Assembly: GCF_900636965.1 (NCBI RefSeq)
Contig: NZ_LR134331.1
Span: 2,728,001-2,792,000, forward strand
DNA length: 64,000 bases
Direction: 5' to 3'
Source of the DNA: Lacticaseibacillus rhamnosus
GTDB lineage: Bacteria > Bacillota > Bacilli > Lactobacillales > Lactobacillaceae
A program made the position numbers and the translations under genes. Shown here piece by piece: positions 13,209 to 49,368 of the stretch (its first letter is position 1; each line of letters opens with the position of its first letter). The notes under the pieces are model-generated. The model ran no database searches and was not told the origin of the DNA. It saw nothing but the letters and a program-made list of their open reading frames with translations.

Positions 13209-13214
13209 CGAAAA

Positions 13215-13309: not shown

Positions 13310-13339
13310 TAATAAATCACTGTAATCGGAGGTTTTACT

Positions 13340-14262: not shown

Positions 14263-14264
14263 CT

Positions 14265-14278: not shown

Positions 14279-14338
14279 ATTGTTGTCGTAGCATAAAGGA
14301 AATCAAGTTTCTATATAAGAAATATTGGAGGGATCATT

Positions 14339-15184: not shown

Positions 15185-15217
15185 TCAAGTGTTATCAATT
15201 TTGAAGGAGTGCTTAAA

Positions 15218-16042: not shown

Positions 16043-16091
16043 TCATCACTTTACTGTTTGACTCTCTATTACAAAGCTGACAATTTACGCG

Positions 16092-16125
16092 AGCTCCGAG
16101 GCGGCATATTGTCCATCTCGGAGCT
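16092..16125. terminator. Hairpin between kduD and kdgA
   Basis: A 9-bp stem AGCTCCGAG/CTCGGAGCT encloses a 16-base loop and is followed by TTCGTTGTT rather than a clean T tract. It could be a leaky terminator or an RNA-processing point that lowers kdgA-kdgK expression relative to kduID. Confidence 0.4.
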
Positions 16126-16161
16126 TTCGTTGTTATCCTATAGAAAAAAGAAGGAGGCCCC

Positions 16162-16815: not shown

Positions 16816-16819
16816 AAAA

Positions 16820-17839: not shown

Positions 17840-17914
17840 AAAGATGGAGTTTCTTACGTAAAGTCGTCAGCAGTAGGTTTTATAAGTAGCGTTTAAAGGT
17901 TAAATTGGGTAGCA

Positions 17915-17950
17915 AAAAACGGTATCTACCTTTGGGGGGATACCGTTTTT
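17915..17950. terminator. Bidirectional terminator between kdgK and rpiA
   Basis: AAAAACGGTATC (17915-17926) pairs perfectly with GATACCGTTTTT (17939-17950). With T tracts on both strands it can end kdgK forward and rpiA reverse. Confidence 0.85.
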
Positions 17951-17955
17951 GAGTT

Positions 17956-18645
17956 CTATCCACGATGAGCATCCAAAATTTCCGGACCATGCGTTGTTCC
18001 GACAACCACCGTTTTAACCAGATCAAGGAACAATCCGTGCTCGACAATCCCAACCTGCTTATTGAGCCATTCTGCCAACAAATGCGGGTGTTCGATCCGG
18101 CCAAGATGCAGATCGATAATGTAATTCTTAGAATCCGTCAAAGCTTTGCTGCCATCCTCATTCAAACGATAAGCTGGTTTCAGGCCTTCATCCGCCAACC
18201 GCTGTAACAGCTTGCCACTACCAAACGGAATCACTTCTAGCGGCAACGGAAACTTTCCAAGTGTGTCCACCAGTTTGGTTTCGTCCACGATCCAAATATT
18301 ACGTGCCGAATTAATCGCAACAATTTTTTCGATCAGATGTGAGCGCCCGCCGCCTTTAATACCCTGAAAATGCTTGTCGACTTCATCGGCACCGTCAATG
18401 GTGAGGTCAATTTTGTCAACCCCGTCCAGTTCTTTCATCGGGATCCCCAACGACTCCGCCTGTTTCCGCGTCCGAATGCTTGTGGCCACACCATTCAGAC
18501 TAAGATGCTCCTCTTTAATCCGCTTTGCAATGGCTTCAACGAGATAAAAAACCGTCGAGCCCGTTCCCAAGCCAATTGTCATCCCGTCTTCAACAAACTC
18601 TGCTGCCCGTTGAGCGGCTTCTTGCTTCAACTTATTCTGGTCCAT
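17956..18645 (-). CDS. rpiA: Ribose-5-phosphate isomerase A
   Basis: A 229-residue enzyme interconverting ribose-5-phosphate and ribulose-5-phosphate in the pentose phosphate/phosphoketolase route. It carries [15 protein letters not shown] at the phosphate-binding loop, the catalytic [21 protein letters not shown], and the C-terminal [13 protein letters not shown]. Start ATG at 18645 ([20 protein letters not shown]) follows AAAGGATGG. It has its own short upstream region and is not part of the GAG operons by function; it may be a second rpiA recruited to the island. Confidence 0.93.
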
Positions 18646-18850
18646 GGTTAACCATCCTTTTCGCTTTATTATCTTCATTATAATATGAATTGTGGTGTAG
18701 ATGGCGATTTGTGAAGAAAACAACAAATTAAAGTTTTCAATTTTTCCGATAAATCTGCTAATTAGCGAAAGAAAACAGACACTACTGCGAGTTTATAAAC
18801 GGATGCTTTGCAATTCTTTTATACTCACCACTTATATTTACCCGTTGCAT

Positions 18851-21800
18851 CTAGTTCGTCTGGTTCTCCCTTTTCTCGCATACAAACATTACGATACCAG
18901 TCAGCACGATAATGGTAAAGCCGATTATGATGAAAATGAAGTTGCCTTTCTCACCGGTGTTTGGCATTTTTTCCGGATCGTGACGGCTATCTTCACTATT
19001 CTTGCCTAGTCTTGTTGTCTGGCCATGTTTGCTTGCTTCGTTAACGTCTTTTTTAATCAAAGCACGTTGCGCCTCAACTAACAATTTGGTAGCATAATCA
19101 ACCGTTTCTTGAGTTGACTCTACATTCTTGAGTGTCACTTTTCCAAATATCAAGGCATCCTGAAGCTTCTGCCAACTCTCAGATGTGTATACTTCACCCT
19201 TAAGCTTATTAATGATGGCTAAGACGGTTTTAAGTGCACTAGTATCAGCAACTTTCACTAATTTCTTTAACGCATCCTCAAGCGCTGCCTTTGCTTGATC
19301 CACAACTACTTGTTTTGCTGCTGCATTCGCATAGACTGCTTTTGCACTTGCCAGCACGGTTATCAACTTTTTATAACTGGAAGGCGTATAATCTATTGCC
19401 CTAACATTTTCCGCATGTGAGATTAACCCCTCCAAAGCAGCCTTATCAGTAGGAACATCAACCGTAACTACCACAGAACGACTAGCACCGGCCAGTCCTT
19501 TTGTCTTAAGCGTCAGCAAATCCTGATTGACAGAAAAACCATCTGCCTGCTTTTTGCGAATGTGAACAGGATATTTGAAATTGAAGTTGATTGGGTCATC
19601 AGACTGTCGTGGATCGGTAGCCGTTAATTGGTAAGTATTCTCACCGAGATCTTTTATGATAAGCGAAACCGGTTGATCAATCTCAAGTAATCCACCAAGT
19701 AAACTGGCCTTATTCCAAATATTTGCCATAATCTGGTCTTGAGTCTTAATCGCCTGTACTTCATTAGTATTGGCCAACACTTGATACTTTGGTTTTTTAG
19801 CTAAGGCGGCAATTGTTGAATCACTTGCCCCTGGAACGGTCACATATTCATACTTGCCATCCTTAACTGCGGAGCCATGTTTAGCTGCTAACGTAACATA
19901 ATGATGACGATAGACAGTGTCAGACGGAAAATAGCCATTGATGTCCTTATAGGAACCGGTTCTTGTTGCACGACTAATATCAACTTGATCATTATCTTTT
20001 GCAATAATATAACCGACATTATTGCTCGGATCGTTGGTGTTCAAATTCACCCAATTTTTAGCCGTTTCTTGATTTACATACGTGTGTCCATCTATGGTGA
20101 TCTTAGTTGTCAGTGGGTCAATTTGGCGTTGATCAAGGATTGTTTCAATATCTGCTTTCGTCGTGCCAGAGATACCCGCGCCAAGATTGACAATTTGGTC
20201 ATTAAGCAAAAACCACGATTTCATTGCTTTTAAGTTCTGACCTTCATTTGTCTTATCTAACACCATCCCTACGCTTGCCACGATCCCATCTGTTGCACCA
20301 CCGACCCATGACTGAGGACTTCTAGAAGAAGACTTGGCACCGTCTGCAAGTGGTGCCGTGTCAACAGTTGTACCAGGTAATCGATAGGGATCAACTGTCG
20401 TCCAGTAGCCCTCACCAAATTGATTGAAATCGCGATTATACAAATAGAGCATCCCATCAGCCGTATGCCAAGCATGAGCATTTTCAGTGTTACCATACTC
20501 GAAATTAGCAATTCGATTTGAATACATAGCAAGTCCAACCGCGTATTTTGACGTTTTCTGCATCACACGATCCATTGAGCCATAGACATTCAAAGAATCT
20601 TGATCATTTTCTTGTGCAGTTGCTTGACTCAGGGCTGTCTTCAGTCCATTTAAAGCCGCATAATCTCGAGGGTTATTAAAGAAGTTATAATAATCCCCCA
20701 CCTGCGCTACCCAGGTTGCCACTGCTTGGTAGATTTTTTGTTTTAATCCCGCTGGTGCGGCTTCAGCAATTAAGGTTAAGTTTGCTAAAGTTTCCTTCCC
20801 TGTCTCTAGTTCTGTAGTCTCAGGATTTGTGCCGGGTGCGCGGGAAATACTTCGGCCTGAGACCATAGACGGCATTCGCCCATTGACCATTAGTTGAAGA
20901 AAGCCTTTGTCGATCAAATTAAAAACATTAGCAAATTGAACTTCACTGATTGCCCATGGTGTTCCGACAAGAGTAGACGAAATACGTGCAATCCCCTTGA
21001 TCATCTCATTTCCATAACTACCATTGTACGGGAAAAAAGTGTGCTGTATAAATGAGCCATCTGCATAAATACCGTCCTTAGCGGTAACAAGTCCCATCGC
21101 TTTAGGTAAATTGGCTTGAACCAGTGCGACACGATGATCATCTTCCAACAATAAGCCGCTAGCAAGAACAGAAATTGAAATATCGGTCAAATTAGCCCCA
21201 GTTGCCGTATATTTTGGCCACTGAATATTTGGATCTTTTGCATAACCCAATAATGGTTGAACAAACCTCCTCAATCTTTGAGGATCCTGTTGCTGTAAAT
21301 CGTCATAGAGCAAAATCAATGTATCATCAAGTTGTTGAGCTGCTCCTATTTGCCAATCCCACCAGTTTCCAGTTGAAAAGGTTCCATTGTACTGCTTGAC
21401 GTTGATCATAAAGTCGATGGCATCAAGAATCGCTCGATAAACGGCGGGGTCTTGATACTGCTCACTCTTAGGATTGTAGTAACCAAGTGTCAGCAACTTT
21501 ATATTAGTAAAAGTCGTTGTATAATCGGCTGATGTCGTATCCGAACTCTTCTTGGCCCACAAACGCTTACGATCAGGGCGTCGATCCATCGTATTCCAAA
21601 GTGTCTTGCTTTGGCCTGCTAAATCGATTAAATACGCATTGACATTCGGATTGTTTAGGTCTGGATTCCTTGCCATTAAACGGTTGCGCCATCGTGAACG
21701 CATTAAACTGAACTGGGTCTCGTCTGCCGTTGTTCTATTGGTCCCTGTGTCAACATTTTGGTCAGATTGACCAAGAGTTCTTTGAACACTTCCACGCTGA

Positions 21801-21910
21801 ACGGTGTTAGGAACTCGTGTATCAGGGTCAATTTCTGCTTGAACCTTCAGACCAACCGCCATCCCTAATGCAAGAACAAACGCTCCAACTCCAAATAGGC
21901 AACGCTTCAT
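18851..21910 (-). CDS. Cell-wall-anchored PL8 hyaluronate lyase
   Basis: A secreted polysaccharide lyase family 8 enzyme of about 1019 residues, expected to cut hyaluronan and perhaps chondroitin to unsaturated disaccharides. A signal peptide (KRCLFGVGAFVLALGMAVG) is followed by the alpha-toroid with NWWDWQIG at about 182-189. The catalytic set is Asn240 (GANLTD), His290 (FIQHT) and Tyr299 (YNGSYG). The 50- and 9-residue spacings equal those of N349, H399 and Y408 in the pneumococcal enzyme. SGRSISR gives the arginine patch. Two FIVAR-like helical repeats (about 810-960) precede the sortase signal MPNTG, a variant of LPXTG. Adjacent ATGs at 21913 and 21910 both follow GAGGAGG. It supplies extracellular depolymerisation for the GAG PTS. 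Confidence 0.93.
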   Translation of the reverse strand: MKRCLFGVGAFVLALGMAVGLKVQAEIDPDTRVPNTVQRGSVQRTLGQSDQNVDTGTNRTTADETQFSLMRSRWRNRLMARNPDLNNPNVNAYLIDLAGQSKTLWNTMDRRPDRKRLWAKKSSDTTSADYTTTFTNIKLLTLGYYNPKSEQYQDPAVYRAILDAIDFMINVKQYNGTFSTGNWWDWQIGAAQQLDDTLILLYDDLQQQDPQRLRRFVQPLLGYAKDPNIQWPKYTATGANLTDISISVLASGLLLEDDHRVALVQANLPKAMGLVTAKDGIYADGSFIQHTFFPYNGSYGNEMIKGIARISSTLVGTPWAISEVQFANVFNLIDKGFLQLMVNGRMPSMVSGRSISRAPGTNPETTELETGKETLANLTLIAEAAPAGLKQKIYQAVATWVAQVGDYYNFFNNPRDYAALNGLKTALSQATAQENDQDSLNVYGSMDRVMQKTSKYAVGLAMYSNRIANFEYGNTENAHAWHTADGMLYLYNRDFNQFGEGYWTTVDPYRLPGTTVDTAPLADGAKSSSRSPQSWVGGATDGIVASVGMVLDKTNEGQNLKAMKSWFLLNDQIVNLGAGISGTTKADIETILDQRQIDPLTTKITIDGHTYVNQETAKNWVNLNTNDPSNNVGYIIAKDNDQVDISRATRTGSYKDINGYFPSDTVYRHHYVTLAAKHGSAVKDGKYEYVTVPGASDSTIAALAKKPKYQVLANTNEVQAIKTQDQIMANIWNKASLLGGLLEIDQPVSLIIKDLGENTYQLTATDPRQSDDPINFNFKYPVHIRKKQADGFSVNQDLLTLKTKGLAGASRSVVVTVDVPTDKAALEGLISHAENVRAIDYTPSSYKKLITVLASAKAVYANAAAKQVVVDQAKAALEDALKKLVKVADTSALKTVLAIINKLKGEVYTSESWQKLQDALIFGKVTLKNVESTQETVDYATKLLVEAQRALIKKDVNEASKHGQTTRLGKNSEDSRHDPEKMPNTGEKGNFIFIIIGFTIIVLTGIVMFVCEKRENQTN

Positions 21911-22001
21911 CATCTTCCTCCTCGTATAACTACACCCCAAAGGCTAATTACAAGCTACCATTGTTTAAGAAATAACCTTTGTGAGCTTATCACCGGTTAT
22001 A

Positions 22002-36825: not shown

Positions 36826-37310
36826 TCAGTCGGCATACGTCAATATCGTAACCTGATCGCCATGCGCAACCGGCCCCGCTTTAATCGCATCGAACGCTTT
36901 CACCTTCTCCATATTTGTAAACACAACCACCACAGCCGGGTCACGATTTGAGGCTTTAATCGCAGCAATATCGACTTGCGATAAAACATCACCCGCCTGA
37001 ACTTCATCCTCTGCCGCAATCTTAGTCTCAAACGGTTCCCCGTCCATCTCAACCGTATCCAATCCCATGTGGACCAACACTTCAAGTCCTGCTGCGGATG
37101 TAATTCCAATGGCATGTTTCGTCGGGAAAACCGAGCTGATGACGCCTGAAATTGGCGCATAAACTAGCCCTTCTTCAGGCGCAACTGCATACCCATCGCC
37201 CATCATCTTTTCCGAAAAACGCCATCTTTGAGCGCCTCCAACAGCATTAGCTCGCCTGTCACCGGTGCAGTGAAAACGTCACGCTTTTCTTTTTTGAACA
37301 ACCCGAACAT
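36826..37310 (-). pseudogene. PTS EIIA-Glc (crr-like) gene broken by a one-base frameshift
   Basis: Reading from ATG 37310, the first 33 codons encode a normal EIIA-Glc start (FGLFKKEKRDVFTAPVTGEL, then LEALKDGVF). The frame then hits TGA at 37203-37205. Starting at ATG 37206, 126 further codons give the rest of the domain (MGDGYAVAPEEGLVYAPISG, TKHAIGITS, and the phosphorylated His in EVLVHMGLDTVE). Adding one base in the T5 run at 37215-37219 restores the standard VFSEKMMGDG join. So this is a frameshifted EIIA-Glc, a sequencing error, or slippage-controlled expression. The 3' part alone lacks the first strands of the fold. A promoter with cre precedes it. Confidence 0.85.
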
Positions 37311-38153: not shown

Positions 38154-38918
38154 CTAATCCGCCGCAACCAACTCACTCGCATCCACCAGACGCTTGGTCA
38201 TCTCCCACAGCTTGGTCACGTCTTCCGGTCGCGTCAAGCCAGTTGCCTTGTCAATAATCGAGCTGTAAATATGCGGGATGACCTGTTTAACCCCGGCATC
38301 CAAGGCAATTTGGAGAATCGCTTCGTAATTATCCAAGTCGATGCCGCCAGTAGGTTCGAGGTTAAAGCCTTCCGCGGCACAGGCTTTGGCCACTGCGCGG
38401 AATTCAGCTTCGTGCTTCAAGCCGCCCATGGGGAAGAACTTGAAGCTGGTGCCGCCCATGTCTTGCAATAGGGCAATGGCGGTTTCAACCGGAACTTCTG
38501 CGGCCGGTTTTTGGCTGCTTTTCGGTCCAGTGGCAAGATTAACGATGCCGACTTTGCCAGTTGGTGAGACCAAGCCATTAATGACGGTCTCATTTTGGCC
38601 TAAAAGTGCGCGACTGGTACCAACGCCGGTGAAGACTTGATTAACGTGTTGGGGCTGCAAGACTTGCGAAACCCGACTCACCATGGCGCTTTGATTCGGG
38701 TCGCCTGCGCCTAAGCCAACCGATAACCCATTAGCGGTCACGGCTTGATATTTTTTCATATCTTCAATCGCCGCTTCATCGGTTGCGTAGTTCTTGGTCA
38801 AAACGCCGACTACCACATGGCCTTCCGCAGCTTCATAGATGTCTTTGGCATTGTCGACGGAACCAGCGAGCACATTTAGAGCGACACGATTTTTATAATA
38901 GTTTGGGGTTAAGTTCAT
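38154..38918 (-). CDS. dgaF: KDGP aldolase family protein (DgaF-like)
   Basis: A 254-residue TIM-barrel aldolase of the DgaF/EF_0839 type. It is expected to cleave 2-keto-3-deoxy-6-phosphogluconate to pyruvate and glyceraldehyde-3-phosphate. The Schiff-base lysine is probably in GGTSFKFFPMGGLKHEAEF. LEPTGGIDLDNYEAILQIAL and GVKQVIPHIYSSIIDKATG are other family blocks. ATG at 38918 follows GAAAGG by 9 bases; the TTG at 38927 overlaps that site. It is distinct from the kdgA aldolase at 16162, so the window has two enzymes for the same type of cleavage. Last gene of its cluster. Confidence 0.88.
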   Translation of the reverse strand: MNLTPNYYKNRVALNVLAGSVDNAKDIYEAAEGHVVVGVLTKNYATDEAAIEDMKKYQAVTANGLSVGLGAGDPNQSAMVSRVSQVLQPQHVNQVFTGVGTSRALLGQNETVINGLVSPTGKVGIVNLATGPKSSQKPAAEVPVETAIALLQDMGGTSFKFFPMGGLKHEAEFRAVAKACAAEGFNLEPTGGIDLDNYEAILQIALDAGVKQVIPHIYSSIIDKATGLTRPEDVTKLWEMTKRLVDASELVAAD

Positions 38919-38932
38919 GGAAGACAACCTTT

Positions 38933-40033
38933 CTATGCGAGAATTTCTTTGAGACGATTGACGATCAGGTCCATTTCCGCTTGATCAACGGCACGAATAT
39001 CGAATTCGATGATCCCTTCATTGGCCCGATATTCGCGCGTGTAGATAGCCGGATCCCCTGCTTTTAGTTCGGCCGTAACCTGCTTGGCATTCTTGGGACT
39101 GGAGGCTTCTACCGTCACCGCGGCCCGGAAAATCGGGCGGCCGGCGCCATCTTGGACTTCCTTCACGTTCAGGTGTGGCACCTCATTCAAAGCGGCCACG
39201 AATGGGTGTAGCCGCTTCTTCATCGCGTCACCGGATTCTGGACCCTGATCCAGATACTGGCTAAGCGCGGTGGTAAACCCGAGCAGATTTTCCTTGCCGA
39301 TTTTCATGGCGCGGCCAATTCCAAGTCCTTGCAGTTTCGTCCAACCGATATATGGTTCCTTGCCGAAAATCAAGCCAGATGCCGGGCCTTCAATCGCCTT
39401 GGCCCCAGAAAACAGCACCACGTCAACGCCCATTTCGACATACTTGTGCAAATCCTCTTCCGCCGCAGCATCGAGAATCAATGGAAGTTCGTGGCGATGA
39501 GCAACCTCCAAGGCTTCCTGAATTGTCAGCATGCTTTTTTGCACCGCATGATGACTTTTCACATAGAAAATTGCCGCAGTGTTGGCTGTAATCATCATCT
39601 CCACATGTTCCGGCGTGCACATATTGGCATACCCGGCCTCAACCACCTGGCCGCCGCCGAGTTCAATCATGACTTCTTCCGGCGTGCCGTAATCAACATT
39701 CTGTCCCTTAGGCAAAATGATTTCACGCTTGGTATACCGCGAAGAAAACGGATGATAAACATGATACTTACTACCTTCACCAATAATCCCGGCGACGGCT
39801 TCAGCGATCCCGGCTGACGCTGAGTTCACCACCACAGCGCCTTCAGTTCCCAGTTTTTTGGCAATGTACGCGCCAGTTTTATCAACCAAATCCTTCATTT
39901 CAAAAAAGTGGGTATCCCCAAACTGCTGTGCCTCAATCGCGGCCTCCGGAACTTTGGAAACGCCTAGAATGGTCATTTTGCCGCTAGCGTTGATCACGTG
40001 CTTCAAATCGTAAGTGCTGTAATAATCTGTCAT
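38933..40033 (-). CDS. dgaE: SelA-like PLP enzyme (DgaE-like, aminosugar-acid ammonia-lyase)
   Basis: A 366-residue fold-type I PLP enzyme of the selenocysteine-synthase-like family. The PLP lysine is in LFSGAKAIEGPASGLI. The cofactor Asp lies in LPLILDAAAEEDL, and the phosphate cradle near VVVNSASAGIAEAVAGI. DgaE of Salmonella removes ammonia from D-glucosaminate-6-phosphate to give KDGP, the substrate of DgaF, which is encoded 14 bases downstream here. Start ATG overlaps the amidohydrolase stop as ATGA. It needs a phosphorylated substrate, and no kinase is encoded in the cluster. Confidence 0.88.
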   Translation of the reverse strand: MTDYYSTYDLKHVINASGKMTILGVSKVPEAAIEAQQFGDTHFFEMKDLVDKTGAYIAKKLGTEGAVVVNSASAGIAEAVAGIIGEGSKYHVYHPFSSRYTKREIILPKGQNVDYGTPEEVMIELGGGQVVEAGYANMCTPEHVEMMITANTAAIFYVKSHHAVQKSMLTIQEALEVAHRHELPLILDAAAEEDLHKYVEMGVDVVLFSGAKAIEGPASGLIFGKEPYIGWTKLQGLGIGRAMKIGKENLLGFTTALSQYLDQGPESGDAMKKRLHPFVAALNEVPHLNVKEVQDGAGRPIFRAAVTVEASSPKNAKQVTAELKAGDPAIYTREYRANEGIIEFDIRAVDQAEMDLIVNRLKEILA

Positions 40034-41151
40034 GCGTGTTGTTCCTCCAAATCGTAAACCGCCCCGCCAACAACTGTGTAAATTGGCGCGATGAGTTGCT
40101 GGCCGGTTTTTGTGTTGCCATTAGAATCCGTTAATACCTTATCACCTTTTGTTAGGTTAAAAATGGTCACGTCCGCATCTTTTCCTGGTCGCAACCGGCC
40201 TTTATTCAAAAGATGGAAGGTGTCCGCCGGTGCAAAAGTCACCATCCGAATAACTTCTGGTAAGGTATAGCCGAGCAGCAACATCTTTTCCATCGTCGTC
40301 GCCATGTCATAAACAGGACCATTTTCACGATTGCGGTGGTAAATATCCGTGCTCAAGGACTTAGGATCAAGGCCATGATCGCGGGCAATCTGCATGGTTT
40401 TAAAATTAAACGAATCTGTCCCGTGGCCTACATCGAAAACAACCCCACGGTCATATGCATCATAGACGAATTCTTTGATCTCACCGTTTTCATCAATCAT
40501 CCCATTCGGCTTGCCATTATAAGCATGCGTCAGGACATCTCCTGCACCCATCGCTTGCAAAATATCTTTGAGTTCAGGCGGATTGGCCCCGACATGCACC
40601 ATAATCGGCAGATGTCCGAGCAAAGCCGCATATGATCTTGCCGCCAATAGTGGCTTGATGCCATTATCAATCACCACCGAATGGCTTTCGCGGGCCTTGA
40701 TGCCGACGATAAAATCAGGTAAGTCCGCAACCGCATCAAACAACGCCTGCTTATTGACTTTATCTAGGTCACCCAGCTCATCCTGCGCTAAAATACCGGT
40801 GCGACCGATATTGATCAGTGCGTAAACATTGGTCTTTTTAGCGCGCGTAATGTCGTAAAAACTCCGAATATTGTCCGCACCGGTTGATCCCGCATCGATC
40901 ACGGTTGTTACGCCAGCCTTGTACCCATCTTCATCGGGATCGTCATAGTACAGAGATAGCTTTTCATAGCAATGCACATGATCGTCAATCCACCCAGCCG
41001 TGACGTAGGATTGCTGGTGTAAGTCAATTTCCTGATGACCGCCTGCTCCTTCCAGCTTTGGTGCTACCGCAGCGATCCGGCCGCCATTAATGCCGACCTC
41101 GATCGGCTGTTCACGTTCTGTTTTACCGTTCTTAATTAAGACATCAAACAC
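40030..41151 (-). CDS. Amidohydrolase/deacetylase (EF_0837 type)
   Basis: A 373-residue amidohydrolase-superfamily metalloenzyme. It has GWIDDHVHCYEK (first HxH metal site), the candidate carbamylated lysine in FIVGIKARESHS, HLPIMVHVGANPP, DVLTHAYNG, and a late metal Asp in SLSTDIYHRN. It ends in the small beta domain GRLRPGKDADVTIFNL. In this cluster it probably removes an N-acyl group before DgaE acts; the exact substrate is unknown. It ends in an ATGA overlap with dgaE. A palindromic element fills the gap to the next gene upstream. Confidence 0.85.
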   Translation of the reverse strand: MFDVLIKNGKTEREQPIEVGINGGRIAAVAPKLEGAGGHQEIDLHQQSYVTAGWIDDHVHCYEKLSLYYDDPDEDGYKAGVTTVIDAGSTGADNIRSFYDITRAKKTNVYALINIGRTGILAQDELGDLDKVNKQALFDAVADLPDFIVGIKARESHSVVIDNGIKPLLAARSYAALLGHLPIMVHVGANPPELKDILQAMGAGDVLTHAYNGKPNGMIDENGEIKEFVYDAYDRGVVFDVGHGTDSFNFKTMQIARDHGLDPKSLSTDIYHRNRENGPVYDMATTMEKMLLLGYTLPEVIRMVTFAPADTFHLLNKGRLRPGKDADVTIFNLTKGDKVLTDSNGNTKTGQQLIAPIYTVVGGAVYDLEEQHA

Positions 41152-41310
41152 AAGTGATTACCTGCCTTTCGATTTGATTGTAGCCATTTTTGGATGCAAC
41201 GCTTGGAGAAATCTGAATTGCGTCAACAAGTGGGGAAAGTTGACCATGAACATGGTTACTCCTGTGTACCGGGCTCTCCAAAATCTTGCACTCCCGCCAC
41301 TCTCCGAAAC

Positions 41311-41428
41311 GCGCAAACTGGCGCAGAAACCTGCACATAAGGACCTTAGACCGCCAATGACCAAAGACCAGTCATTGGCGGTCTAAGGCCACTTATGCTC
41401 CGATTTCTAAGCGCGCCAGTTTACGCTC
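41311..41428. repeat. Palindromic intergenic element, copy A
   Basis: A nested inverted repeat within an operon gap. The inner arms CCTTAGACCGCCAATGAC (41344-41361) and their complement (41371-41388) match perfectly over 18 bp. The outer arms AAACTGGCGC (41315-41324) and GCGCCAGTTT (41413-41422) match over 10 bp. It shares the end word GAGCGTAAACTGGCGCG and the inner ATAAGGACCTT block with the element at 59595-59720. Confidence 0.75.
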
Positions 41429-42124
41429 TTAAAGTTTCACCGGGAAGAAGAATCCCATAATCATCGCGCCAATAATCGCACCGCCTGGGATTGGTTTTTT
41501 CCAAGCGTAGAACAACGCTGCGCCGACTGTGCTGCCAATGCCAATCGGAATGCTGGCAGTCACGGCACTGAGGATAATCAACGGCCCAAGGAAGCGGCCA
41601 GTTTGGTTACCGGCCCCCATCATAACGTCGGCACCAAATGTCGCATTGCTTTGGTTAATCGTGAACTTCCGCACCAGGAAAATGATCATCCCGATAATTA
41701 AGCCCAGAATCGCCCCAGTCAACAACGCCAAGGCAAAGTTTGACACCAGCGACTTGGCGCCAACCGACAGTAAGATCGCCGGAATGCCGATGCCGACCCC
41801 TGTCAAAATCGAACCGCCAAGATCCAGAATGCCGACAAGTGACCCTTCCAGAATCCGGGCAAACAGGAAACTCGCTCCAAACGCCGCCGCTGCGCCATAC
41901 GAGCCACCGGTCATACCAGCCTTCAGCATTGCCACAATTGCCACTTCATTGAAGGCCCCAACGCCATAGTTAAAATACATGGATGTTCCGGCAAAAACGC
42001 CTGCCGACATCATTGCAACAATCGCGACAAAGCCCCAATCTGCATGCCAGAAATCGCGATCCGCAGCTTCTCTCAATTCTTCTTCAATTGGCGCTTGATT
42101 TGCTGTAGCTTGTTTATCCGCCAT
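41429..42124 (-). CDS. DUF4310 membrane protein (EF_0833 type)
   Basis: A 231-residue polytopic membrane protein of unknown function. A soluble acidic head (EEELREAADRDFW) is followed by about six hydrophobic segments with many Gly/Ala (GMTGGSYGAAAAFGASFLFA, then LGGSILTGVGIGIPAIL, NQTGRFLGPLIILSAV, and IPIGIGSTVGAALFYAWKK). The small-residue-rich helices and charged loops resemble a transport channel. It is always found with DUF4311, DUF4312 and SFCGS proteins, which suggests one complex. The stop lies at the edge of palindromic element A. Confidence 0.85.
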   Translation of the reverse strand: MADKQATANQAPIEEELREAADRDFWHADWGFVAIVAMMSAGVFAGTSMYFNYGVGAFNEVAIVAMLKAGMTGGSYGAAAAFGASFLFARILEGSLVGILDLGGSILTGVGIGIPAILLSVGAKSLVSNFALALLTGAILGLIIGMIIFLVRKFTINQSNATFGADVMMGAGNQTGRFLGPLIILSAVTASIPIGIGSTVGAALFYAWKKPIPGGAIIGAMIMGFFFPVKL

Positions 42125-42138
42125 CAGTTAATCCACCT

Positions 42139-42918
42139 CTACTTTCCGCTTAACGTGTTATGAATATTCGACAACCAGTCAGGTGCATTTAAGTTAAAGG
42201 ACTTCAGCAAGTTGAGATCGAATCCGCGGAAGAACCCTGATAAGACGAAAAGCAAAATGGCCGCAACCAAAATTGATTTCGTAATTCGAGTCCATCCTAG
42301 TTCATCAACACCTTTTCCGACAAGAATGCCTAAAACGACCCCTGGTACCGCATTACCCATAATCATCGCCGATAAACCGCCAAACACGGTTCCAAACAGG
42401 CCTGACCGTCGACCGGCATCAATTGCCGCCAACCAGAATAAGATTGGCATCACGAGGTTAATCAACTGATTCGCCGCCGGAACAAGCACTTTAACCGCCG
42501 TCACTTGCAGCGATTCGGGAATCGAACTGGACGTGACATTCAAGAAAGCAACGACCACGATGCCGGCAATCGCCCCGGCAATCCCCATTTTCTTAGGATT
42601 ATGCATGGTTTGTTCAACGTTACGATTTTTAACCAGTAACCCAGCAGCCGCCCAGTTCGGAATGACACGGTGCGTAATATCCTGCGTAAAGGCGCCGGCC
42701 CCAACCGTTGACGCCCAAGCATTAAAGAAGAAACCCAACCCGAAACTAAAATGCGAAGCCGGATCGCCTTCTGCCGCGTTCATTTCGCCCAGTGTTCGAA
42801 ACGCGCCCAAAGCTTGTGTCTTTGGCGCGGTGAACATCCGTGCTGCCCCAACCCCTGCCGCAAAACCAACCAATCCGCCAATAATGATGGACTGGAATAA
42901 AATTGTGAGAATTGGCAA
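42139..42918 (-). CDS. DUF4311 membrane protein (EF_0832 type)
   Basis: A 259-residue polytopic membrane protein of unknown function with seven or so hydrophobic stretches (ILFQSIIIGGLVGFAAGVGA, GIAGAIAGIVVVAFLNVTSS, and PGVVLGILVGKGVDELGW). The conserved loop SHFSFGLGFFFNAWASTVGA lies near residues 55-75. It probably pairs with the DUF4310 protein, 14 bases downstream, as the second membrane subunit of a transporter. Start ATG abuts the DUF4312 stop. Confidence 0.85.
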   Translation of the reverse strand: MPILTILFQSIIIGGLVGFAAGVGAARMFTAPKTQALGAFRTLGEMNAAEGDPASHFSFGLGFFFNAWASTVGAGAFTQDITHRVIPNWAAAGLLVKNRNVEQTMHNPKKMGIAGAIAGIVVVAFLNVTSSSIPESLQVTAVKVLVPAANQLINLVMPILFWLAAIDAGRRSGLFGTVFGGLSAMIMGNAVPGVVLGILVGKGVDELGWTRITKSILVAAILLFVLSGFFRGFDLNLLKSFNLNAPDWLSNIHNTLSGK

Positions 42919-42919
42919 T

Positions 42920-43288
42920 TCATTTCACACCCTTCAAAATATTCTTTAGATTCGGCAATGACATGGCATCCGGCGATGGTGCCGCGACGTCTTCAAAAAC
43001 CAAAGCGTCAAGGTCAATCGCCGTAACTGCAACCGTCACTGCCAGTGTCACTGCATAAGTGGTACGCGTGCGTTTAAAAAAGAAAAACAGAAACTTTTCC
43101 GTATAACTCGACTTAACCAGTTTCAGCGGCTCGACTTTTTCGGGAACGATCCGCAAAATCGCAGTTTCGGTATCACCAATCAGCTTTTTTTGGATATTGC
43201 TAAAAGCGGCTGCAAAGGCTTGCTGCTTGGTTTCACCTTTGCCAGATACCGTGACGACTTGATGTTTGGTTTCATTGACGACTGTCAT
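42920..43288 (-). CDS. DUF4312 protein (EF_0831 type)
   Basis: A 122-residue protein of unknown function. An alpha/beta soluble part covers about 1-65 (TVSGKGETKQQAFAAAFSNI, then TAILRIVPEKVEPLKLV). A hydrophobic patch follows in YAVTLAVTVAVTAIDLDALV. It may be a peripheral or single-pass subunit of the DUF4310/4311 complex. It lies one base before the DUF4311 start and 15 bases after the SFCGS stop. Confidence 0.85.
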   Translation of the reverse strand: MTVVNETKHQVVTVSGKGETKQQAFAAAFSNIQKKLIGDTETAILRIVPEKVEPLKLVKSSYTEKFLFFFFKRTRTTYAVTLAVTVAVTAIDLDALVFEDVAAPSPDAMSLPNLKNILKGVK

Positions 43289-43303
43289 TTATAACCGCAC
43301 TCC

Positions 43304-43663
43304 TTACGCTTCGGGATACTTCTTGTTCCACGCTTCGACCAGTGCTTTACCCAACGCTTCTTGATCCATAAAGCCAAAACCGAGAACTTTAGTGCCTTCC
43401 TCGATGGCAGTCACACCTTCTTGAATCGAGCGCATGCCATGACGTTCCGGCCATCCATATTGCGTATGCGCAGTAATCGCCCCCGCACCGCCGGAACCAC
43501 AGAAGCTAATGCCCATATCGGCTTTTTCTTTATCCATCACCTGACCCAAACGCATATCCGCCCCCATACCAGGCACCACAACGGCAGTACCACCAGCGGC
43601 TTCAACTCCTTTAGCAACGTTTTGACCTTTACCCATCCGATCTGCGATAACTACTTTAACCAT
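43304..43663 (-). CDS. Glycine-rich SFCGS-family protein (EF_0830 type)
   Basis: A 119-residue soluble protein. It has a Rossmann-like start (MVKVVIADRMGKGQNVAKGV) and the family-defining GISFCGSGGAGAI block with Cys55. Size, start and a conserved Cys in a Gly-rich loop recall PTS EIIB subunits, in which a Cys near the N-terminus carries phosphate, although here the Cys is mid-sequence. A phosphocarrier or substrate-binding role in the DUF4310-4312 complex is an inference; no activity is known. Confidence 0.85.
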   Translation of the reverse strand: MVKVVIADRMGKGQNVAKGVEAAGGTAVVVPGMGADMRLGQVMDKEKADMGISFCGSGGAGAITAHTQYGWPERHGMRSIQEGVTAIEEGTKVLGFGFMDQEALGKALVEAWNKKYPEA

Positions 43664-43677
43664 GATATCTTCCTCCT

Positions 43678-43718
43678 GAGCGTGAGCTGGCGCGGTTAGA
43701 ATCCTCGCCAGTTAACAC
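43678..43718. repeat. Palindromic intergenic element, short copy C
   Basis: GAGCGTGAGCTGGCG (43678-43692) faces CGCCAGTTAACAC (43706-43718), with the same GGCGCGGTTAG core found in the elements at 41311, 57853 and 59595. It sits between the SFCGS and PRD genes. Confidence 0.65.
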
Positions 43719-43749
43719 GAGATAATTGCAATCGTAAAATATCTCCACT

Positions 43750-44106
43750 TCAAATCTTGTTCTGCGCCGCTTCAAAGTGAATCGATAACACATACTTCTC
43801 CGCATCCGCCAAATGACCGATGTGCCGAACCACTTGATCGGCTAAATCCAGCGACTTTTTCGAGACTTCCGCAAACATTTGGGGATCGACTGCCGGCAAC
43901 TTTTCGCCTGACTTTGAGCGGTTGATCATTTCAATCAGATGATTCGTTAACACTTGCAACTGAACCGCGGTAAAATGAATCTCCGCTTGTTCGGCTAACT
44001 GAATCACGTCACTGACAATCACTTGAACCGCCTGTGGATCTTGGCTTTGGGCAATCATTTTTTGCACTTCAACAGGTAGCTTAATTTCGGCTTCCAGTGG
44101 TGACAT
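43750..44106 (-). CDS. PRD-domain protein (EF_0829 type)
   Basis: A 118-residue stand-alone PTS-regulation-domain-like protein, all helical (IKLPVEVQKMIAQSQDPQAV, then LQVLTNHLIEMINRSKSGEK, and HIGHLADAEKYVLSIHFEAA). The conserved His residues lie in IHFTAVQ, VRHIGHL and LSIHFEA. PRDs are phosphorylated by PTS proteins, so a separate PRD next to an unusual transporter suggests PTS control. The ATG at 44106 lies inside the end of the PRD antiterminator gene, with a G-rich stretch directly before it. Confidence 0.8.
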   Translation of the reverse strand: MSPLEAEIKLPVEVQKMIAQSQDPQAVQVIVSDVIQLAEQAEIHFTAVQLQVLTNHLIEMINRSKSGEKLPAVDPQMFAEVSKKSLDLADQVVRHIGHLADAEKYVLSIHFEAAQNKI

Positions 44107-46027
44107 CCCCCTTCTGAGACACAGCATGACCTAAATTTAAATATTCAAGAATCGCATGGACTTCCGCGCGATTGATGGCAAGGCCATGATCGGTAAAAAT
44201 TCGTTCCACGGTGCCAGCTAATTTGGCATCGTCATGATTAGGTTTTCCTTGGTACTGCTTACCAAACATGATGCGCTGGGCAGCTAAAAAGACGTGCATC
44301 ATGAACGCATCGGCATAATACGGGTCAATCTTGGTTGGCAACTGGCGCTTGAGTTCTGAATAAAGACTGAACATGGTCAGAATTGTTTGTTGTGTCTGCT
44401 TTTCCAGATCAGGCTTAGGCTTAATCGGAACTACCGGCGGCTCTGCTTTGAGTTGTTCAAGTGGCACCTGCAAACGTTTGGCCACCGCACGCCGGATAGC
44501 GGCAATATCAGTCGCGTTTGGCAAGGGCTGGACTTCAATGACTTGCACATCCAGATGCTTCAGTGGGAAAACGCTAATCACCAGCTCAGGATGCTCGCGG
44601 GCAATCAGCGCCCGCGCATCATCAATGGAGGCAAATCCGACCAATTCAATGTTGGGTATCGCCGAAGCCACGCGCTGTTGAATCAGATTGGTGATCCCAA
44701 TACCGGTGGCACAAATATAAGCGACCCGCACCGTTTTCAGTTGGCTGTCCCGATTGAGCGATACCATGAAATGCAAGGCGATAAAGGCCACAAAGGCATC
44801 GTTCAAAATCGGGCGATAGGCGGCCAGCTCCTTATGCACCGTCTTTTCAATGGCTGCAAACAACTGCGGATATTCGTGCTTGATGTCCTGCGTAAACGGA
44901 CTGTATTGAAGCAGTTGATTCTCCTTGCCAAGCGACTGGCTGAGGTGCAGGTAGAGATTTTCCTGAAGTTGACTGTCGTGACTGAAATCGTGATCAACCA
45001 GCGCCCCAACTGCCAAGATGATTCGGTGCGTCATAGCCACAAAGTTGTCGTTCTGTGCCACCGTTAACTTCTGACCATCCGCTCCAAGGTAATAAGCAAA
45101 ATCGTCGGCCCAAACTGGCAGGTTGTAAAACGCCAGTGCTTTGAGAATCAACTGACCGGTAAACGTGGTACTGTCGCCTTGCTCCACAACCCGATGATAA
45201 CTATTCACCGGCTGATTAATCCCTTGGCGCACAATGCCGATTGCGAGCCGAATCATGGTCGTGATCAAAGCGCTGGGATCAGGCATTTTCTGATCCTGTT
45301 TTCCCAGTTGAATCGCCGCTTTCAGGATCGTATTAAACGCATGATCAAAGGTCGGCTCACTCGTCAAAACGAGCGCCCGTTTCGGTTCAACCAAGGCATT
45401 GAGGCAATCCACCAGCTCCGCCATCAACGTCTTACGATTCAACTGCTGAGCGATAATGCGTTCCAGCAACCGGCGAATATCCAGCTCCGTCCCCGTGAGT
45501 TTGTAGCCATAATAATTCTTACTCGTGAGCTTCACATTCACCTGATGCAAAAAGGCAGCCAGTTTCTTTAAATCGTTGTTCACGGTCGTTTGACTGACAT
45601 TCACCCGCGCTTGAAGCTGCTGTTGGGTCGTATAGTCACCTGTTTGCGCCAAAATCAGAATCATGCGGATAATCCGTTCATTCGGGGCCAAATAGTTATC
45701 CGCCAACTGCTCATCGATTTTCTCGCGCAATGCCATGCGATCTTCAACGCTTGCTTCAATCCAGACGCCTTTTCGTGGGGCGCTTTCGAGTTTGGAATGG
45801 TGCAATGCAAGCCATTCACGAATATCTGCCAAGTCATACTTCACGGTGCGAATACTGACCGCCACGGCTTCTGCCAACTGCTTAGATGTCACCACCCCTT
45901 CAGCATTCAGTAACTGCAACACAATTTGCCGCTGCCGAGTACTCAATTGCAACGTGTTCACCCCCTCGTAAAACCACTTGCCACAACGATGCCAGACGCC
46001 TGCCAGCACGCCATTCACACCGTCCAT
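44081..46027 (-). CDS. BglG-type PRD transcriptional antiterminator/activator
   Basis: A regulator of about 648 residues. Two N-terminal helix-turn-helices (STRQRQIVLQLLNAEGVVTS, QQQLQARVNVSQTTVNNDLK) are followed by two PRDs (about 190-400). An EIIB-like segment follows (VRVAYICATGIGITNLIQQR, with its Cys), then a C-terminal helical PRD-like part. No EIIA domain is present. It is the first gene of the DUF4310-4312 cluster and likely its activator, controlled by phosphorylation. ATG 46027 has GGAGG six bases upstream; a TTG at 45952 with GAGGGGG eight bases upstream would start the protein closer to the helix-turn-helix and is a real alternative. Confidence 0.85.
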   Translation of the reverse strand: MDGVNGVLAGVWHRCGKWFYEGVNTLQLSTRQRQIVLQLLNAEGVVTSKQLAEAVAVSIRTVKYDLADIREWLALHHSKLESAPRKGVWIEASVEDRMALREKIDEQLADNYLAPNERIIRMILILAQTGDYTTQQQLQARVNVSQTTVNNDLKKLAAFLHQVNVKLTSKNYYGYKLTGTELDIRRLLERIIAQQLNRKTLMAELVDCLNALVEPKRALVLTSEPTFDHAFNTILKAAIQLGKQDQKMPDPSALITTMIRLAIGIVRQGINQPVNSYHRVVEQGDSTTFTGQLILKALAFYNLPVWADDFAYYLGADGQKLTVAQNDNFVAMTHRIILAVGALVDHDFSHDSQLQENLYLHLSQSLGKENQLLQYSPFTQDIKHEYPQLFAAIEKTVHKELAAYRPILNDAFVAFIALHFMVSLNRDSQLKTVRVAYICATGIGITNLIQQRVASAIPNIELVGFASIDDARALIAREHPELVISVFPLKHLDVQVIEVQPLPNATDIAAIRRAVAKRLQVPLEQLKAEPPVVPIKPKPDLEKQTQQTILTMFSLYSELKRQLPTKIDPYYADAFMMHVFLAAQRIMFGKQYQGKPNHDDAKLAGTVERIFTDHGLAINRAEVHAILEYLNLGHAVSQKGDVTTGSRN

Positions 46028-46047
46028 TTCCAACCTCCACCGTCACT

Positions 46048-46544: not shown

Positions 46545-47216
46545 TCAAACTCCCGCAGTCTTATCAAGCTGGCGTCCTTCTTCATTGAACACCCGAATCG
46601 CATCGTTAGCAGCTGCGTTTGTCATCAGCTGTTTGAAGATATCATAACTGATCGTCACATTTGCGGCGCCGGCTTTGATCGCGGCCATGACTTGTGAGGC
46701 GTTTTTGAAACTTGCCCCCATGATCTTAATATGCGTATCGGTACTTTGATAAAAGCTGTGGGTCTCGGCGATCATTTTATATGGATCAATGTCGAGCTGC
46801 TCCATGCGATTCACGTATGGCGCGATATAGTCGCAATCCACAACGCAAGCCATGAAGCCTTGGCGCGTTGAATATACGGCCGTTCCCAGCAGACATTCAT
46901 CGGGCTTTTCATCCCTAATTGCAGAGATTGCCTGATAGCCCGGTTCAAACAGCGGCACTTTAAACGCCATTCGGGTATCATCCGTGTCCGGAAAACGGCG
47001 GCGCAATTCATGATAATCAGCCAACAGTTCGTCCTTGGTATCACCCACCAGCTGAACGAATAAAACGCCGGGCTTTAAGGCGCGAATCTTAGTCAGCTGT
47101 TCAAAACGCGGCTGGCCTTCCTTAAGCAACAACTTAGGATTAGTCGTAACGCCTTCAAACTGGTTAAACTGCAACATTTCCTTAATCTGGCTGAGATTGG
47201 CAGTATCAATGAACAT
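46545..47216 (-). CDS. Transaldolase-like / fructose-6-phosphate aldolase family protein
   Basis: A 223-residue small transaldolase (FSA/TalC-type). The Schiff-base lysine is Lys86 in MAFKVPLFEPG. MFIDTANLSQIKEMLQFNQF and GVTTNPKLLLKEG begin the barrel. KIMGASFKNASQVMAAIKAG and ANVTISYDIFKQLM end it. It lies 3 bases after gutA and is co-transcribed with the sorbitol operon, where it could act on fructose-6-phosphate or related ketose phosphates. True transaldolase and aldolase activities cannot be told apart here. Confidence 0.85.
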   Translation of the reverse strand: MFIDTANLSQIKEMLQFNQFEGVTTNPKLLLKEGQPRFEQLTKIRALKPGVLFVQLVGDTKDELLADYHELRRRFPDTDDTRMAFKVPLFEPGYQAISAIRDEKPDECLLGTAVYSTRQGFMACVVDCDYIAPYVNRMEQLDIDPYKMIAETHSFYQSTDTHIKIMGASFKNASQVMAAIKAGAANVTISYDIFKQLMTNAAANDAIRVFNEEGRQLDKTAGV

Positions 47217-47219
47217 CGC

Positions 47220-47603
47220 TTATTCCCCCTTCATAACCTTAATGACGGTGCCGACATCCAAATCCGGATAGGGCTTTTGCTCCAAGTACAGTGATCCGGC
47301 CAGTTCCGGTGTGGTCGCACCGTCAAAAACAATCGCGGTGTGACCTAAATTGCCTAAGTTCGTATTGACTTCGTTGCCCACCGCCGTAATGGCATAAGTC
47401 TGATCACCAAACATCATCACATCGCCGGGTTTAATCGGCTCAAGAATTTGATTCACTTTGATAATGAAGCAGGATGACCGCAACGCGTCAGGCGCCTCAT
47501 CTCCAAAAAGAATCGCCATGTTAATATCCTTAAACCCGCGCGCTTCGGAACCAACTTCAAGAATGGTGGTTTCATATTTCACTGTTGCTGCTACTGACGA
47601 CAC
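47220..47603 (-). CDS. gutA: PTS glucitol/sorbitol-specific EIIA
   Basis: A 127-residue cytoplasmic phosphocarrier with the conserved phosphorylatable His in NLGNLGHTAIVFDG. KPGDVMMFGDQTYAITAVG and LEQKPYPDLDVGTVIKVMKG are family blocks. The start is a GTG at 47603 with GAGAGG 8 bases upstream; the GTG at 47612 overlaps that site. Sixth gene of gutFRMCBA. Confidence 0.92.
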   Translation of the reverse strand: MSSVAATVKYETTILEVGSEARGFKDINMAILFGDEAPDALRSSCFIIKVNQILEPIKPGDVMMFGDQTYAITAVGNEVNTNLGNLGHTAIVFDGATTPELAGSLYLEQKPYPDLDVGTVIKVMKGE

Positions 47604-47630
47604 CGCACTCACCTCTCTAAAAATCCTGCT

Positions 47631-48746
47631 TTATTTTGCATACAAACCAAAACTTGCTAACCAAGCGACCACGACTCGGGGAACCCCGTTTAAGAATCGC
47701 GAATACAACACTGAAACCACACCGACTTCAACGGTTTTTGAGTCTGCTTCTTCAAGCCCTAAACCAACAGGAATGAAGTCAGCCGCATTTTGCGTATTAA
47801 TGGCAAACAGTGCCGGTAATGCATATTGCGGCTGAATGTTGCCGCGGCCGATTTCAACCCCGATCAGCGTCCCAATGACTTGGGCAATAACCGCTCCCGG
47901 TCCGAGAATCGGGGATAAGAATGGCAAGGAACAGATAAAACCAATCGCAATCAAGCCAAAAACATTCCCAGCCAGTGGCGTCATGAGTTTGGCAAACCAA
48001 CTGCCTAAACCCGAGCCTTGAATGATCCCGATTAGCAACGCAACAAAGGCCATAAACGGAATTACGGTGTTAAGCATGGTCTGGACAGAATCTTTTGCCG
48101 CTTGGTTAAAAGTTGCAATTACCTTCCCGGCACCAATTCCGATCCGGGCAATAAAGTTAGGCTTTTTCATTTGGGCAGTGATCGTTTTGTTCGTGTCAAA
48201 CTTGGCTTCGCGAGCTTCAGCAGCTTGCTCGTCGGTTGCTGCCGTTTGCGCTTCTGTATTCGTTGTTGCCGCTGCCCCTGCTTCTGCCAAGGCAGCATGC
48301 TGCTTGCCGGCTTCACCGCGCTGGTCAAATGGAACGCCATTTAACGCCTGATCCGGAACAGCATCATCCGGCAATGCGGTAATCTGATTCACATCAACAT
48401 TGGAAACATACAATTTAGGCACAATATATTTTGCCAGCGGTCCGGATTTTCCGGTGGGCAACACATTAATGGTTAAGATGTTTTTCTTCGGATAAATCCC
48501 GCAGCGCAGCGTTCCGCCACAGTCAATGATCGCCAATGCCGTTTCGTCTTCGGGAATGGATGTTTTAAATCCATCGACGGCTTCCATCCCGGTCAATTCC
48601 GCAATTTTGTCCACGATGGCTGGCCGGTTACCCCCTGTCACGTAGATAAACTTATGCTTCTGTTCGGTCGGTGTAATTGTCAACGGCCCGCCATAGCCGC
48701 CTGATCCTTTAACGACTTGAATGCTATGCCATTTTTTCTCAGCCAT
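47631..48746 (-). CDS. gutB: PTS glucitol/sorbitol-specific EIIBC
   Basis: A 371-residue protein. The N-terminal EIIB domain has its phosphocysteine in [17 protein letters not shown]. An Ala/Glu-rich linker covers about 155-195. A C-terminal membrane portion follows ([60 protein letters not shown]). With GutC and GutA it imports sorbitol as sorbitol-6-phosphate. Confidence 0.93.
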
Positions 48747-48798
48747 GATCCTAATCTCCTCATTTTAAAATCGCGTCAACTTCACGCTATGACCGCTG

Positions 48799-49368
48799 CT
48801 AAACTTCTTGTCCGTTACGTGCAGACAGATCAACGGTTTTGCTCAGAGTAATGCCAGTTTGCTTGGAAACATAAGCAGTTGTGAAGTCGGTAATCCAGCC
48901 ACCGATAAAGTTCATGACAATCCCGACTAACATATAGCGAATAGCCAGATCCATTTGATTCAGTCCGAGTTTTTGCACCCCTTGCGCAATCCCCAACCAG
49001 ACAAACAGTTCACCTGGATTGATATGCGGGAAGACGCCATTACTCGTATGACAAAACTGGGCTTGGGCGGCATAATAACTAGGCTTGTAGTATTCAGGCA
49101 GAAAGCGAGCCAACGTGAAACACATTGGATTGCCCAGCATGAACGCCGCAAGAAAAGGTAAAACCAGATAACGCATTAACACATTACGACTTGCTTTTTG
49201 GGCAAACCGTTCGATGCGTTCTTCCCCGATAAAGGCAATAATCGTATTCATCAGTACCAACAACAGCAGCACAACCGGCACAATGTTGGTCATCCAACTA
49301 ATAAACGTCTTGCCGCCAGTTTGAAACAGCTTCATAAAGCCAGCGGCAAAGTCAGAAATATATTGCAT
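48799..49368 (-). CDS. gutC: PTS glucitol/sorbitol-specific EIIC
   Basis: A 189-residue membrane subunit. IVPVVLLLLVLMNTIIAFIG, LPFLAAFMLGNPMCFTLARF and AQFCHTSNGVFPHINPGELF are typical of the Gut family, with a C-terminal acidic/polar tail. It follows gutM by 12 bases and precedes gutB by about 50. Confidence 0.93.
   Translation of the reverse strand: MQYISDFAAGFMKLFQTGGKTFISWMTNIVPVVLLLLVLMNTIIAFIGEERIERFAQKASRNVLMRYLVLPFLAAFMLGNPMCFTLARFLPEYYKPSYYAAQAQFCHTSNGVFPHINPGELFVWLGIAQGVQKLGLNQMDLAIRYMLVGIVMNFIGGWITDFTTAYVSKQTGITLSKTVDLSARNGQEV

Follow-up and report, generated by a model that had tools for sequence, protein, structure and literature searches.

A nine-gene operon of Lacticaseibacillus rhamnosus raises the question of how its substrate enters the cell, and in what chemical state it arrives. 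The genes all lie on the minus strand at positions 38154-46033 of the 64,000-nucleotide stretch analysed here (the window; positions 2,728,001 to 2,792,000 of contig NZ_LR134331.1), and an earlier note, made from the sequence alone, had proposed that they encode a new transporter resembling the phosphotransferase system (PTS). Our preferred reading, held tentatively and with slightly less than even confidence, is that they specify a PTS-dependent uptake module together with a catabolic operon for an N-acylated 2-amino-2-deoxy aldonic acid. The cargo is most likely N-acetyl-D-glucosaminate or a close relative. The nine genes, in transcription order, are as follows.

44081-46033, minus strand: PRD-type DNA-binding transcription regulator (HTH_11, Mga and PRD domains by Pfam); relative in 75 of the 80 loci sampled below
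43750-44127, minus strand: stand-alone PRD protein, EF_0829 family (over the TIGR03582 cut-off); proposed phosphoryl-accepting partner of SFCGS
43304-43663, minus strand: SFCGS protein, EF_0830 family (by family models), with invariant Cys55 and an RpiB/LacAB fold in the predicted structure
42920-43288, minus strand: DUF4312, EF_0831 family (by family models), small putative accessory protein; 78 of 80 loci
42139-42918, minus strand: DUF4311, EF_0832 family (by family models), multi-helix membrane protein; proposed transport subunit
41429-42124, minus strand: DUF4310, EF_0833 family (by family models), hydrophobic; proposed second transport subunit; 80 of 80 loci
40030-41151, minus strand: EF_0837-type amidohydrolase, proposed N-deacylase (over the TIGR03583 cut-off; close relative of PDB entry 2ics)
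38933-40033, minus strand: DgaE-type pyridoxal 5'-phosphate (PLP) ammonia lyase, a SelA relative (over the TIGR01437 cut-off, under that of NF047797)
38154-38927, minus strand: DgaF-type aldolase for 2-keto-3-deoxygluconate 6-phosphate (KDGP), EF_0839 (over the PF07071 and NF047796 cut-offs)

The place of this cluster and the families that the earlier note had named were both confirmed. Eight of the nine genes score above threshold with a dedicated NCBIfam or Pfam family model, and the ninth, the regulator, exceeds only the cut-offs of its three Pfam domains. Because HTH_11, Mga and PRD domains are present and no antiterminator RNA-binding domain is among the 18 listed Pfam matches, this protein reads as a DNA-binding PRD regulator; it had been called a PRD antiterminator, of which the first half stands and the second does not. 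NCBIfam classes the EF_0829 to EF_0833 families, as well as EF_0837 and EF_0839, as hypothetical equivalogs, and its family names also cite AHA_3910 to AHA_3917, which we take to be Aeromonas hydrophila loci. We found no paper that names DUF4310, DUF4311 or DUF4312, and SFCGS turned up only in apparently unrelated senses, judging by titles and abstracts.

Conservation of the gene cluster

A pattern scan of 84,980 species genomes yielded at least 434 confirmed stretches, of which the best 80 (L009-L088) were compared; some of these end at contig edges, which affects the per-gene counts. The cluster loci come from Bacillota (Lactobacillales, Bacillus relatives, Listeria) and Proteobacteria, the latter including Providencia, Erwinia, Xenorhabdus, Photobacterium, Chromobacterium and others. 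DUF4310 and DUF4311 are each present in all 80 loci, DUF4312 and SFCGS in 78, the amidohydrolase and the small PRD protein in 77, DgaE and the PRD regulator in 75, and DgaF in 69. Adjacency within 150 bp is nearly universal for PRD-SFCGS (76/77), SFCGS-DUF4312 (75/77), DUF4312-DUF4311 (75/78) and DUF4311-DUF4310 (79/80), a gene order that is not due to chance. Looser pairs are DUF4310-amidohydrolase (52/77) and regulator-PRD (40/74); the position of the regulator varies between loci, and a GntR/UTRA protein takes its place in L020 and L021. A stop codon interrupts the PRD gene of L020, and L042 is missing both PRD and SFCGS and carries a partial DUF4312.

In one draw of 299 Bacillota genomes, SFCGS and DUF4311 exceeded their cut-offs in the identical six genomes, with no orphans of either. 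Weak DUF4311 matches in two further genomes (G204, G275) and a weak match in G142 to YhfT, a membrane protein discussed below, lay in surroundings that looked unrelated by eye, and an E. coli control genome gave one weak DUF4311 match that was not assigned to a gene. Two of three scans of viral contigs returned no relative, and the third only a 36-residue YhfT piece.

Catabolic enzymes

The pathway proposed earlier, N-deacylation followed by ammonia loss and aldolase cleavage, holds. DgaF scores 385.2 bits against the NF047796 cut-off of 300, while DgaE reaches 370.5 of the 600 bits set for NF047797 and exceeds the broader TIGR01437 (532.5 versus 385.3). All 74 DgaE relatives longer than 300 residues (two shorter pieces from L034 were dropped) keep His161/His162 and the arginines R303, R333 and R347 in window numbering, which by hand count on the alignment correspond to His162/His163 and R301, R332 and R346 of the Salmonella enzyme. 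In that D-glucosaminate-6-phosphate ammonia lyase, the available text of the report describes a 6-phosphate set by manual docking at the three arginines (PMC9529869). The trio supports the suggestion that DgaE would act on a 6-phosphate; it is a good sign and not proof, because arginines also stand at these positions in 8t7j, the PDB entry next in kinship, and partly in SelA proteins. None of four PLP enzymes from the yhf operons described below keeps any of them in the alignment.

The cluster shares DgaE, DgaF and the docked phosphate-site arginines with the D-glucosaminate (dga) pathway of Salmonella. It differs in that the Salmonella importer DgaABCD is a PTS, of the mannose family according to a cited title, whereas DUF4311/4310 with PRD and SFCGS is the proposed importer here; in addition, the DgaE of the window falls below the NF047797 equivalog cut-off. 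To our knowledge, the Salmonella pathway has no deacylase. For Enterococcus faecalis, the accessible portions of three papers report that the dgaEF genes are duplicated (PMC7396535), that EF0839 and EF2975 have already been proposed for amino-sugar metabolism (PMC7701990), and that the ef_0839 or ef_2975 promoter is listed among those active in urine (PMC2912369).

In each of the four distant Bacillota loci that were read, the gene after DgaF encodes a haloacid dehalogenase (HAD)-type hydrolase:

L091, 14046-14840: HAD-type hydrolase gene after DgaF
L093, 5578-6384: HAD-type hydrolase gene after DgaF
L094, 5480-6412: HAD-type hydrolase gene after DgaF
L095, 12669-13469: HAD-type hydrolase gene after DgaF

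Link to the phosphotransferase system

The small PRD protein evolves fast, with 62 of 78 sequences remaining after grouping above 85% identity, and H63, R70, F85, E110 and H117 are invariant in all 78, so that both histidines are kept. In genome G274 (L004/L093), PRD and then SFCGS are fused in one 249-residue protein. The small PRD protein is retained in L021 although the regulator there is of a non-PRD type (88% identical to the GntR/UTRA protein of L020), and it stands alongside a YhfZ regulator in the yhf operons of E. coli and L107.

Enzyme I (PF05524) is encoded in 118 of the 299 Bacillota genomes overall, and in all six with DUF4311 and all five with YhfT over cut-off; 11/11 versus 118/299 gives a hypergeometric p of 2.7e-5, not corrected for kinship. 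Within another set of 37 genomes (30 of those that hold the 80 loci plus seven others, among them G204 and G275 with doubtful DUF4311 matches only, and G244 and G302, apparently one genome), it was found in 35, the misses being the metagenome-assembled genomes L049 and L083. The suggestion of PTS involvement is thus upheld by enzyme I, the PRD histidines and the PRD-SFCGS fusion. A transporter that phosphorylates its cargo and one that is regulated by the PTS alike predict the enzyme I co-occurrence.

A nearby EIIA-Glc gene had also been cited as fitting PTS involvement. The gene is real (36826-37206), but a relative lies near the cluster in just one of 80 loci, and we rejected it as a partner of the module. 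In Enterococcus ratti (L033 3726-5719), ptsH-ptsI lies about 190 bp upstream of the regulator on the same strand, and ptsI is also linked to the cluster in G159 (L091). Loci L009-L088 were searched for such linkage by script, and L093-L095 were read by eye; we did not use it as evidence because about 0.7 cases are expected by chance (a rough estimate; P of at least two, 0.16).

Predicted structure of the SFCGS protein

A model of SFCGS built from 21 sequences reached a predicted local distance difference test score (pLDDT) of 93.5 and a predicted TM-score (pTM) of 0.87. Foldseek ranks 1-45 against the PDB were RpiB, LacA/LacB and the related uronate isomerase 4u8f, with a best E of 8.6e-5 and query TM-scores of 0.52 to 0.73. 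No EIIB fold occurred among the 50 listed of 1390 PDB matches with E <= 10, and this fold search on a predicted structure led us to reject SFCGS as an EIIB. Profile searches gave fainter signals of the same kinship. RpiB or LacB accounts for three of five weak PDB profile matches, with the alignment covering the Cys motif, and a true RpiB from genome G060 is matched below cut-off by the Pfam SFCGS model (E 4.8e-4). The Pfam LacAB_rpiB model had no match over cut-off for the SFCGS protein of the window; the best seen was the G274 fusion (E 0.0035, 17.7 versus 24.7 bits, under cut-off).

Cys55 and Ser57 align with the Cys65 and Thr67 loop of RpiB/LacB, which places Cys55 at the catalytic cysteine, while by eye Asp8 falls near the place of Asp8 in RpiB/LacB and Arg9 where LacB has His9. 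D8, R9, K12 and C55 are kept in 79 of 79 sequences. The alignment shows no counterpart of LacA His96, Arg130 or Arg134, to which the available part of PMC3755991 ascribes ring opening (His96) and phosphate binding (Arg130/Arg134). SFCGS therefore has the fold and catalytic-cysteine loop of RpiB/LacAB isomerases in common with them, but differs in missing the ring-opening histidine and C-terminal phosphate arginines, and in always occurring with a membrane partner in the genomes searched. A cysteine flanked by basic residues would fit a role in acid-base catalysis and one as a phosphocysteine equally well.

Membrane proteins

The best of five DUF4311 models (pLDDT 79.1, pTM 0.67; the other four 62 to 69) shows eight long helices. 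Against the PDB and viral structure libraries, this moderate model yields nothing at E <= 0.001; its best PDB match is a MATE protein at E 0.43. DUF4311 and DUF4310 show no detected homology to each other. As in classical PTS permeases, a possible His-then-Cys relay stands beside a membrane part, and enzyme I is present; unlike in those permeases, PRD, SFCGS, DUF4312, DUF4311 and DUF4310 have no EII family match, and no EII fold is among the listed matches of the SFCGS and DUF4311 models. In the G274 operon with the PRD-SFCGS fusion, an in-frame TAG interrupts DUF4311.

A parallel module in the yhf operon

A trio of PRD, DUF2620 and YhfT occurs in the yhf operon of E. coli and five Bacillota genomes. 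Its order is constant in the five Bacillota; in the E. coli operon, PRD and DUF2620 are separated by further genes. The E. coli yhfSTUWXYZ operon resembles the cluster in encoding a stand-alone PRD (YhfY), an SFCGS-like DUF2620 (YhfU), a multi-helix membrane protein (YhfT) and a fold-type I PLP enzyme (YhfS). It differs in its other enzymes, in its regulator, and in having a single membrane protein, which shows no detectable homology to DUF4311/4310. Its products are annotated as putative or uncharacterised.

DUF2620 and SFCGS align with an hhalign probability of 91.5 over 116 columns, Cys on Cys, and the Pfam SFCGS model matches the L107 DUF2620 at E 0.001, under cut-off; the single E. coli YhfU sequence against the SFCGS profile gave nothing significant. 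The yhf PRD proteins keep His-x6-Arg in six of six and the second histidine in five of six. By eye, YhfT could plausibly have been DUF4311 and DUF4310 joined in one chain, an idea that was dropped: the joined profile scored 16.2, versus 17.3 +/- 3.1 for 30 local column shuffles. In L107, an APH-type kinase gene (4760-5770) directly precedes the yhf operon, an observation from one Bacillota genome. A module shared by both operons (PRD, RpiB-fold Cys protein, membrane protein) makes EF_0829-EF_0833 and yhf testable by one assay.

A proposed route and the evidence against it

For transport itself, the phosphoryl relay and the substrate, we infer the following route. DUF4311 and DUF4310, with DUF4312, would form the membrane part of the uptake system, and the stand-alone PRD protein and RpiB-fold SFCGS would be the cytoplasmic partners that connect it with the PTS. 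HPr, together with enzyme I, would phosphorylate the PRD histidines, and SFCGS would act next, through its Cys55 pocket. Provided that this reading is correct, we think it somewhat more likely than not that the cargo is the final phosphoryl acceptor, in which case the acid would arrive as a 6-phosphate. The amidohydrolase would then take off the acyl group, DgaE would remove ammonia to give KDGP, and DgaF would split KDGP into pyruvate and glyceraldehyde-3-phosphate.

The operon is a candidate N-acetylglucosaminate pathway in PTS bacteria. If the module does phosphorylate its cargo, PRD domains would have a role as phosphocarriers in transport, and an isomerase fold would have given rise to a class of PTS permease. 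The bolder form of this idea, a new phosphotransferase permease class spanning both operon types with PRD as IIA (His), SFCGS/DUF2620 as IIB (Cys55) and DUF4311/4310 or YhfT as IIC, strikes us as rather unlikely. The earlier proposal of a new PTS-like transporter finds support for its link to the PTS and for a 6-phosphate substrate of DgaE, and none for an EIIB fold of SFCGS, an EIIC fold of DUF4311 or the EIIA-Glc partner.

Several observations weigh against a PTS-dependent uptake module. PRD regulation by itself would account for the co-occurrence with enzyme I. SFCGS, proposed in the earlier note as a IIB-like carrier, has an isomerase fold of the RpiB/LacAB type in its predicted structure; the moderate DUF4311 model gave no PDB match at E <= 0.001, and no EIIC is among the 50 listed of 81 weaker PDB matches. 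In the parallel operon, E. coli YhfY has Asn in place of the second histidine, and YhfT gave no hhalign match to DUF4311 or DUF4310 with low-diversity profiles. A PfkB-like open reading frame (ORF) occurs in the fetched stretch of 14 of 80 loci, in nine of them within the traced gene run (runs were traceable for 77 of 84 loci). Finally, 12 of the 77 traced runs hold an ordinary PTS EIIC of the lactose/cellobiose family, 12 a MupG-like protein, and 11 both, as judged from one representative of each protein scanned against family models. Because of these EIIC genes, the novel module need not be the sole importer in some loci.

The 11 loci that combine a lactose/cellobiose-type EIIC with a MupG-like phospho-muramidase relative (e.g. 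L014, L027, L031, L046) suggest additional uptake of a disaccharide in some members. No genes beyond the eleven query families were found in 23 of the 77 runs, and genes in the other 54 were scanned in part.

The statement that no kinase is encoded is correct inside the nine-gene operon and fails for the window, where a PfkB kinase (16736-17839, plus strand) adjoins kduI, kduD and a KDPG-type aldolase, and for the 14 loci above. The window kinase is over the Pfam cut-off and resembles 2-keto-3-deoxygluconate (KDG) kinases in NCBIfam, under cut-off; in L025 the PfkB gene sits inside an apparent upstream kdu-type operon.

Alternative explanations

It is a serious possibility, though one we rate below the PTS-dependent uptake module, that a gradient drives entry of the free acid through DUF4311/4310, that PRD is a PTS-controlled switch akin to inducer exclusion, and that a separate kinase phosphorylates. 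PRD domains are regulatory in known proteins, the listed matches of the DUF4311 model include no EIIC, and the PfkB kinases tested, from the 14 loci and the window, are closest to KDG kinases, under NCBIfam cut-offs. There is also a precedent in the ong pathway of Pseudoalteromonas, which, in the available text of PMC9537276, imports free N-acetylglucosaminate (GlcNAc1A) and phosphorylates only KDG. That pathway shares deacetylation, deamination and a KDG-6-phosphate product with the route proposed here, and has as its own features an SSS transporter, a D-aminoacylase-like deacetylase, a fold-type III deaminase and phosphorylation by KdgK as the last step. The ong kinase thus acts after deamination, yet the DgaE arginines are kept in 74 of 74 relatives, including 13 full-length copies from PfkB-bearing loci. 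Moreover, with three PfkB kinases and one APH kinase as queries, no similar ORF was found in the fetched stretches of 66 of 80 loci, other kinase families being unsearched. A quite improbable option is that SFCGS is an ordinary metabolic enzyme of the RpiB family (for example an isomerase or a C2-epimerase that acts on an open-chain sugar acid) and shares a transcript, but no function, with the transporter. The RpiB fold of its model, the placing of Cys55/Ser57 on the Cys65/Thr67 loop and, by eye, of Asp8 near Asp8 all speak for this option, and an aldonic acid has no ring, so that a ring-opening histidine would be dispensable. The inferred pathway needs no isomerisation, however, and the phosphate-binding arginines are missing along with His96. 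SFCGS/DUF2620 accompany PRD and a membrane protein in two operons with largely different other enzymes, and SFCGS over cut-off is never without DUF4311 in the 299 Bacillota genomes.

The substrate is a separate matter, and there is an appreciable chance, a little short of the confidence we place in the PTS-dependent module, that the acid comes from host glycans or an Amadori-type compound and is not chitin-derived N-acetylglucosaminate; this would be compatible with any of the readings above. LPMO_10 is an enzyme making oxidised chitin ends. In Lactobacillales, the order of the window, it is found in 10 of 15 cluster genomes versus 17 of 133 others (p 1.4e-5; by genus 5/10 versus 1/38, p 8e-4), which argues against another acid. 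The link is not significant in the Providencia order (6/14 versus 32/134, p 0.11), LPMO_10 was not found in the window's own genome, and the window carries a hyaluronate-lyase-like gene and kdu genes, all of which favour one. On these sequence comparisons, N-acetylglucosaminate is a fair guess as the substrate of some members and a candidate for this one. An Aeromonas chitin study could not confirm the GlcNAc1A route, according to its available text (PMC11653859).

Genomic surroundings

An apparent glycan-degradation locus occupies 2845-21940 of the window and includes the following features.

6188-8113: heparin-lyase-like protein (match under cut-off)
8399-11098: galactosamine-type PTS-like genes (matches under cut-off)
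14339-17839: kduI, kduD, aldolase and PfkB kinase (over cut-offs)
18851-21940: LPXTG-anchored hyaluronate-lyase-like protein (match under cut-off)

Directly upstream of the cluster, the minus strand at 46545-49368 carries glucitol/sorbitol PTS genes (EII-GUT, EIIBC-GUT, PTSIIA_gutA) and then a transaldolase-family gene.

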